Positions 30,875 through 32,200 of a stretch of DNA of 32,700 nucleotides are shown piece by piece. Both the position numbers and the translations under genes were made by a program. The stretch comes from Janibacter limosus NBRC 16128. Lineage in GTDB: Bacteria > Actinomycetota > Actinomycetes > Actinomycetales > Dermatophilaceae. Below the pieces are notes generated by a model. That model did not search any database and was not told the DNA's origin. It saw only the letters and a program-made list of their open reading frames with translations. Position 1 is the first letter of the stretch; every line of letters begins with the position of its first letter. Location of the stretch: the NCBI RefSeq assembly GCF_001570985.1, contig NZ_BCSS01000041.1, positions 1 through 32,700 of the forward strand, in the 5' to 3' direction.

Positions 30875-30914
30875 GAGGCCCCGACTGCTCGGTGGAGGCC
30901 CCGACCGCTCGGTG
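30875..30914 (+). repeat. Tandem 20-bp repeat after nadA
   Basis: Two adjacent copies of GAGGCCCCGACYGCTCGGTG (30875-30894 and 30895-30914) differ at one base. The second runs straight into the first long palindromic repeat, sharing its GGTG. Confidence 0.85.
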
Positions 30915-30957
30915 GAGGTAAGCGCGCGGACGATTCCTCGGCGAGTCGGCGTCCACT
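30911..30957 (+). repeat. Palindromic repeat, copy 1 (plus orientation)
   Basis: A 47-bp unit beginning GGTGGAGGTAAGCGCGCGG and ending GCGAGTCGGCGTCCACT. Its ends (GGTGGAGGT and the complement of ACnTCCACC) are inverted to one another, and CGCG/GCGAG form an inner imperfect pair. Copies 2, 3 and 4 are at 30975, 32090 and 32154. Confidence 0.88.
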
Positions 30958-30974
30958 CGTACCCCCCTCCCCTG

Positions 30975-31022
30975 AGTGGAGGTAACCGCGCGGGTGAATC
31001 GTGGGCGAGTCGACTGTCAACC
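30975..31022 (+). repeat. Palindromic repeat, copy 2 (plus orientation)
   Basis: AGTGGAGGTAACCGCGCGGG to CGAGTCGACTGTCAACC. It is the most diverged copy. Its last bases include the stop codon of the nuclease-like gene (31017-31019), so that gene ends inside the repeat. Confidence 0.85.
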
Positions 31023-31952
31023 AGCACGGCGCACACCGCCGGACAGCCGAGCGTGCGCGGTCACGACCTGCCGCATGAACTGCTCCTCGGCAATCCTCAG
31101 GCCGAGCAGATCGATGCGCAGCACTGTGTCCCCTTGGATCGAGAGGGCGTTCTGCCGCAAGTTGTCGTCCATGACCGCGAGCCCCCACCGGTGGCCCGCT
31201 CCGTCGATCTCGCCCACGAGGCCACACTCCCAGCGCACGTCGAGATAGATCCGTCCACGTGCGCCGTGCCGGATGACCTGACGGCTGGGCTCGGGCAGTC
31301 CGTACTGCCGGCACACCACGGCGAAGTCGAGCTCACCCAGCGCTTGCGCCCCAAGCGCGATGTCGCCTGCCACCCGCGCGATGAAAGCCCGCCGGGTCCG
31401 GCCCCTCACCATCTGGGGCGCCTCAAGAATCTCGGTCCCCATACACAGTCGCTGCTGCACCGGCATGACCATGACCAGTGCGGCCTGACGATCGGAGACG
31501 GCCCAGTGAGCTGCCCGGACCGCTGCCGGGGCGGGCCTGACAGTCGGTAGGTCGCCGCGCAGGGGCAAGGACTCCGGTCTCGAGCGCACCTTGTGCACGA
31601 CGACGCCATCGACTGGCCGGACGGCGGCCGTGTGAGGGACGGACACATGGATGGCGTCGTCCTTCCATCGCTCCAGTCCTGACTGTTGCAGCGCGGTCGG
31701 CCCATCGAGTACGGCGATACGCTCGCCGACCTCCCAGACCGCGCGCCATCGTCGAGCCAGTGTGCTCAACTCGCCGGTGTGCGTCGCTATGGTCCAGCGT
31801 CCGTGCGCAACCCAACGTCGCTGGCGCACCTGCAGCCGCACCTCGTCGCGGCTGATGCCGAGCTCGCGAAGCCGGCGACGGCTGAGGGCGCCGCCATACG
31901 AGGCTGCGGCGGCCATTGCGGTGTCGTGGATCCCCAGGATGCGTGCGTCCAT
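31017..31952 (-). CDS. AbiEi/DUF559-like protein with predicted Vsr-type nuclease domain
   Basis: A 311-aa protein. An N-terminal winged-helix-like part (GGALSRRRLRELGISRDEVR, then QVRQRRWVAHGRWTIA) resembles AbiEi-type antitoxin/regulator N-termini. The middle is variable (VSVPHTAAVRPVDGVVVHKV). The C-terminus fits DUF559/Vsr-like PD-(D/E)xK nucleases: E207, D238 (IYLDVRWE), E248 and D250 (LVGEIDGAGH), then DDNLRQNALSIQGDTVLRID. All expected acidic residues are kept, so it may be active. The ATG at 31952 is chosen because the frame upstream enters the repeats. No toxin partner is adjacent. Two repeats lie on each side, and an inverted repeat (31999-32017) lies upstream. Confidence 0.78.
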   Translation of the reverse strand: MDARILGIHDTAMAAAASYGGALSRRRLRELGISRDEVRLQVRQRRWVAHGRWTIATHTGELSTLARRWRAVWEVGERIAVLDGPTALQQSGLERWKDDAIHVSVPHTAAVRPVDGVVVHKVRSRPESLPLRGDLPTVRPAPAAVRAAHWAVSDRQAALVMVMPVQQRLCMGTEILEAPQMVRGRTRRAFIARVAGDIALGAQALGELDFAVVCRQYGLPEPSRQVIRHGARGRIYLDVRWECGLVGEIDGAGHRWGLAVMDDNLRQNALSIQGDTVLRIDLLGLRIAEEQFMRQVVTAHARLSGGVRRAG

Positions 31953-31998
31953 CGCCCCATCCCATGGCCACGACGGTGACGAAGGGAGGGACGTGGTC

Positions 31999-32017
31999 GG
32001 GTTGTGTATGACAACCC
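31999..32017 (-). promoter_or_regulatory. Candidate operator/promoter GGGTTGT-N5-ACAACCC
   Basis: A 7-bp perfect inverted repeat with 5-nt spacer, 47-65 bp before the nuclease-like gene. On the minus strand it contains TCATAC, a possible -10. AbiEi proteins bind inverted repeats in their own promoters, so autoregulation is plausible. That is inference. Confidence 0.45.
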
Positions 32018-32089
32018 ATGCCACGGCGAGCTTGGGGACGACGGCGCAGGAAGCAGCAGCCTCCCCCCTTCGCCGGTTGGAGGGCTGCC

Positions 32090-32135
32090 GGTGGATGTCG
32101 ACTCGCGGATCATTCCTCCGCGCGCTTACCTCCAA
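32090..32135 (-). repeat. Palindromic repeat, copy 3 (minus orientation)
   Basis: The reverse complement begins TTGGAGGTAAGCGCGCGGAG and ends GCGAGTCGACATCCACC. It is inverted relative to copies 1 and 2. Confidence 0.88.
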
Positions 32136-32153
32136 CGAGTCCTCGAGGCCGCG

Positions 32154-32200
32154 GGTGGATGTCGACTCGCGAAAGAATCGTCCGCGCGTTTACCTCCACC
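32154..32200 (-). repeat. Palindromic repeat, copy 4 (minus orientation)
   Basis: The reverse complement begins GGTGGAGGTAAACGCGCGGA and ends GCGAGTCGACATCCACC. It has the best terminal palindrome (GGTGGAGGT with ACATCCACC, one mismatch). It lies 44 bp after the hydroquinone reductase stop. Confidence 0.88.

Follow-up and report, generated by a model that had tools for sequence, protein, structure and literature searches.

A predicted nuclease gene bracketed by dispersed palindromes in Janibacter limosus suggests a REP/RAYT-like partnership with an unrelated enzyme

Insertion sequences of the IS200/IS605 type are short single-gene units with hairpins at both ends. Closer still to the locus described here are REPtrons, in which the gene of a RAYT transposase (TnpAREP) is flanked by inverted copies of a repetitive extragenic palindrome (REP). 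Our comparison with the RAYT literature draws on three articles (PMC3733652, PMC6006769, PMC8266576), the first of which also records REP-like palindromes for which no enzyme is known. We analysed a stretch of 32,700 nucleotides of Janibacter limosus NBRC 16128 (hereafter the window), which is the entire contig NZ_BCSS01000041.1 of a 3.38 Mb draft genome, and found near one end a gene for a predicted nuclease enclosed by four palindromes. Relatives of this gene are enclosed by palindromes of their own, and we consider it probable that gene and palindrome form a partnership that is like REP/RAYT in layout and dynamics but employs an unrelated enzyme. In the literature we found no report tying this enzyme class to repeats. 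The features of the locus are the following.

30913..30955, plus strand: palindrome unit 1, 43 nt, better arm outward (arm identities 1.00 outer, 0.71 inner)
30977..31019, plus strand: palindrome unit 2, 43 nt, its final bases being the gene's stop codon (arms 0.88 outer, 0.65 inner)
31017..31952, minus strand: predicted nuclease gene, 311 amino acids, single copy in the genome
31074..31352, minus strand: predicted DUF559/EDxHD-type nuclease domain, residues 201-293, with E207, D209, D238, E248, D250 and H254
31356..31946, minus strand: AbiEi-like part, residues 3-199 (winged helix and second domain)
32092..32134, minus strand: palindrome unit 3, 43 nt, better arm outward (arms 0.94 outer, 0.76 inner)
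32156..32198, minus strand: palindrome unit 4, 43 nt, better arm outward (arms 1.00 outer, 0.76 inner)

A first-pass annotation of the sequence had described two plus-strand and two minus-strand palindromes around a single gene whose stop lies inside the second copy. All four are present, the starts given there being off by at most 2 nt, and the stop codon of the minus-strand gene (31017-31019) is the very end of unit 2. The palindromes are imperfect, the units of each pair are spaced by 64 nt, the two pairs are inverted relative to each other, and the better arm faces outward in all four units. In the window, 4 matches to the 17-nt arm TGGAGGTAARCGCGCGG with at most 3 mismatches compare with 0.20 expected in shuffles, and the two-arm pattern occurs twice, against 0.00 expected. 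Stem positions co-vary as pairs: 82% are paired, whereas shuffles give 62.5% and sliding 41.5% at most.

The bracketing is by no means confined to the window. A palindrome of the T[CG]GANGT type lies near the gene in 34 of 80 named loci, on both sides in 25, with 2 matches elsewhere in the flanks searched; many of the remaining loci hold other palindromes, for example in Kribbella, Aeromicrobium, Nocardioides and Ornithinimicrobium. Palindromes of this kind measure 42-52 nt and are often near perfect. When the 5' and 3' flanks were compared free of any motif, 66 of the 76 named loci had a match above the 99th percentile of the same-contig background, and 45 of 77 a match above that for flanks belonging to other genes, a control that includes loci with the same palindrome type. 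In a class-wide sample, 14 of 20 loci surpassed the 99th percentile of 380 cross pairs. Within single genomes the flanks of a gene matched each other better than every tested cross-paralogue pairing in 29 of 30 loci (mean 40.9 versus 18.4), the exception being L093. Two side observations concern the relatives. Genome G196 carries tandem arrays of the Ornithinimicrobium-type unit (C14:50885-51174 and C10:61887-62178) with a period of 62-63 nt, close to the 63-65 nt at which paired units are spaced elsewhere, and in G057 a segmental duplication of at least 5.3 kb with 99.9% identity carries a relative of the gene (C1:21955-28830 and 112633-119508; L159 and L160).

Palindromes also co-vary with their cognate gene across genomes. 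Twelve palindromes were searched in the twelve genomes that they come from, seven of which presumably belong to other families to judge by their names. This gave 86 places in a palindrome's own genome, of which 63 lie away from the gene, against 1 in another genome; one row that covers two joined units is included among the former. Among the matches listed for 11 palindromes in ten genomes of the family the pattern is block-like, with cross matches between related palindromes inside one genus; dispersed copies were not seen for every palindrome searched. Arms of the window type number 40, 18, 9, 60, 65, 20, 6 and 5 in eight carriers of the window-type gene, against 6, 2, 0, 11, 0, 0, 0 and 9 in eight other genomes of the genus (p 0.005); other relatives of the gene are present in five of the latter. 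The six carriers with the gene at the nadA site have 9-65 arms and two more distant carriers 5-6, and the highest counts among the eight other genomes come from G057 (11), where a remnant of the gene persists, and G064 (9). Outside the genus, the arm pattern is at background in 170 genomes of the family, with a maximum of 6 that the reversed control also reaches. The first-pass annotation had asked whether the repeat is tied to the nuclease family. A relative of the gene is carried by 51 of the 53 family genomes with at least 5 covariance-model rows, compared with 91 of the 133 others (p 1e-5); the exceptions, G046 and G152, have 12 and 9 rows and no detected gene, and may either have lost it or rely on another enzyme.

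One might nevertheless suppose that the gene came to lie by chance among generic palindromes moved by an ordinary transposase, and the REP-like palindromes of PMC3733652 mentioned above provide a precedent. However, paralogues within one genome carry different matched palindromes at 29 of 30 loci, and the 86 own-genome places stand against the 1 elsewhere. Nor did the Y1 family of RAYT-type transposases (PF01797) turn up in any of 12 palindrome-bearing genomes, although as a control 5 of the 14 reference genomes, E. coli being one, gave a match; other transposase families were not searched. Chance placement was unlikely already on such grounds, and we regard it as highly improbable. The suggestion of the first-pass annotation that the layout resembles a REPtron with a protein unrelated to RAYT is supported.

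In the genome of the window the palindrome is dispersed both as solo 43-nt units and as doublets, while the gene is single copy, which answers the question whether copies are scattered and come as singlets or inverted pairs. A DNA search of this genome gave 16 rows, the window included and some palindromes counted on both strands, and a covariance model built from 26 palindrome units gave at least 33 rows at E <= 0.01, likewise with both strands counted. The 8 doublets measured there are all 107-108 nt long. In them the outer arms lie nearer the consensus than the inner arms (0.92 versus 0.77, p 0.005; L002 is reversed), as is also the case in REPINs. Concerning the sequence beside the palindromes, a 20-nt direct repeat, GAGGCCCCGACYGCTCGGTG, stands in two tandem copies at 30875-30914, before and into unit 1, and the motifs CCCCCTTCGC / GCGAAGGGGG recur next to Janibacter palindromes, at 32064-32073 in the window and near L002, L004, L007, L009, L011, L013 and L016.

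Where the dispersed copies lie bears on whether they serve as operators, an alternative raised by the first-pass annotation. The AbiEi-like part of the protein would, as the regulator of a dispersed regulon, bind the palindromes, which would in addition end transcription. This has some appeal, since the promoters of AbiEi antitoxins contain inverted repeats that these proteins bind (PMC7319586), and the fold match covers residues 3-199; the units upstream of the gene could serve autoregulation, and copies behind genes are terminator-like. Yet of the 27 dispersed copies (singles or doublets, from three genomes), 16 lie between convergent genes and none between divergent genes, and the gene borders that the 27 copies face are 43 ends and 8 starts, with the surrounding genes called by a simple codon-position score. 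This placement fits REP-like elements or terminators better than operators and therefore weakens the operator alternative. The units at the stop codon, the invariance of the nuclease residues, and the neighbours in the window, nadA and a GST gene (GST_C) with no AbiEii partner, argue in the same direction, and we judge a regulatory role quite unlikely.

The orthologous sites of four dispersed palindromes, compared in relatives with one genome per species, show that such sites exist in empty, palindrome-only and gene-filled states. The L005 site is empty in G056, holds one unit in G054 and G064, a doublet in the window's genome, G060 and G062, and the full arrangement of unit, gene and unit in G066 and G059. 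At the L002 site G060 and G062 have doublets and G056 has none; in G066 this space contains an unrelated palindrome. Units are found at the L015 site in G065, G060 and G054 and not in G056, G064 or G066, and at the L009 site in G065, with none of the window type in G066, G064, G056 or G054. We observed in addition that unrelated palindrome-like sequence in G066 (L206) and G056 (L204) occupies intergenic space that holds a window-type palindrome in another genome, as if such spaces were shared landing places. The first-pass annotation had named outcomes adverse to a link between repeat and nuclease, namely a repeat equally common without the gene, no co-variation, copies confined to this locus and no empty-site polymorphism; none of them came about.

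The locus of the window itself has turned over. The interval from nadA to the GST gene measures 41 nt in G064; in G057 it contains two units plus the final part of the gene, in six other genomes reading frames that are unrelated, and in G061 955 nt with no listed reading frame. The gene points one way here in the window's genome and in G056, and the other way in G054, G060, G062 and G065. Synonymous divergence (dS) of the gene between the window and G065, G062 and G060 is 1.05, 1.02 and 0.95, whereas that of the adjoining nadA is 0.12, 0.18 and 0.22; the allele has therefore been replaced or has arrived independently.

Presence and absence at orthologous sites could also be the work of a homing-type selfish gene, whose nuclease cuts chromosomes at the palindrome so that repair copies the gene unit in, the palindromes being targets and scars and not movers. 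One orthologous site does show both palindrome-only and gene-filled states. The flanks of its filled allele retain palindromes, however, and with both flanks keeping them the filled allele is unprotected, unlike the site of a homing gene, which counts against homing. The palindromes, moreover, outnumber the single gene in the window's genome, and no gene was seen in any of the seven genomes read at the L015 site. We consider homing unlikely.

Structure modelling indicates that the protein is an AbiEi-like DNA-binding protein fused to a nuclease of EDxHD/PD-(D/E)XK type. In the model, residues 3-199 match the AbiEi fold and the C-terminal domain resembles I-Bth0305I with moderate Z. By sequence, PADLOC matches the window protein to AbiEi (E 3.3e-8), and Pfam and NCBIfam give no match at E <= 1. 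Among 29 family members PF04480 is found in 14 and PF13338 (AbiEi_4) in 8 (E <= 0.1), and Y1_Tnp is not among the 6 families listed for them at this threshold. The DUF559 label of the first-pass annotation is thus weak by sequence, while the fold and the acidic residues are those of DUF559/EDxHD nucleases: the four residues it had pointed out (E207, D238, E248, D250), together with D209 and H254, are invariant across 29 aligned proteins. Relatives of the protein occur in 142 of 186 genomes of the family (E <= 1e-5); in a class-wide draw of 394 genomes, 99 have one (E <= 1e-20).

The ratio of nonsynonymous to synonymous divergence (dN/dS) is 0.13-0.22 among six Janibacter genes, and the protein is therefore kept by selection. 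It has 1 match in its own genome and none in 72,556 plasmid records. Such a conserved single-copy gene would suit an enzyme of genome care, processing cruciforms or replication problems at palindromes whose spread takes another route, the match of gene and palindrome then being coadaptation. As this leaves the lineage-specific bracketing of the gene itself unexplained, we hold genome care to be very unlikely.

Returning to the REP/RAYT-like partnership, the co-variation and the predicted fold suggest that the protein recognises, cleaves and mobilises the palindromes. It is tempting to propose that each protein recognises one lineage-specific palindrome of about 42-52 nt, which it may bind as a duplex, a cruciform or a single-strand hairpin, and that it nicks or cuts there. 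Nicking or cutting would cause palindromes, and occasionally the entire gene unit, to be copied to new places and would keep the palindromes of one genome alike. Copies do bracket the gene itself, and solo copies or, in Janibacter, 108-nt doublets lie scattered intergenically, mostly behind gene ends. A wider proposition, which we rate as likely as not, is a second, independently evolved REP system: throughout the class Actinomycetes, each AbiEi-nuclease fusion would recognise a long palindrome of its own and spread it by non-HUH nuclease chemistry, enzyme and palindrome diverging together between genomes. An enzyme class is in any case matched with its own long palindromes across numerous families of a single bacterial class. 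Should the protein act on these palindromes, repeats would be seen to spread by a new route, studies of specificity would gain an extensive natural collection of nuclease-palindrome pairs, and some of the DUF559 and AbiEi_4 families would acquire a function.

Several known systems share part of this picture. The AbiE type IV toxin-antitoxin has the AbiEi fold that the model finds in the window protein, which differs in its additional C-terminal nuclease domain, in palindromes on both sides of the gene and dispersed, and, in the window, in lacking an adjoining AbiEii (DUF1814) gene next to NadA and GST. EDxHD and Vsr-like nucleases, the homing endonuclease I-Bth0305I included, have the C-terminal fold and conserved acidic residues in common with it; here the domain is fused to an AbiEi-like part and linked with palindromes of its own. 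IS200/IS605 elements are likewise short single-gene units with a hairpin at each end, but no Y1 transposase was found in the 12 genomes, and in the window's genome there are more solo hairpins than gene units. The closest likeness is to REP/RAYT and the REPtrons: in both cases inverted copies of a palindrome enclose a gene, further copies are dispersed intergenically as singles and inverted doublets, the latter REPIN-like at 107-108 nt in the window's genome, and palindromes vary between lineages. Unlike REP/RAYT, the enzyme here is predicted to join AbiEi to an EDxHD-type nuclease instead of being a Y1 HUH protein, and its palindromes are 42-52 nt long and often near perfect, with no GTAG in the 10 nt before the window-type units examined or in their alignment.
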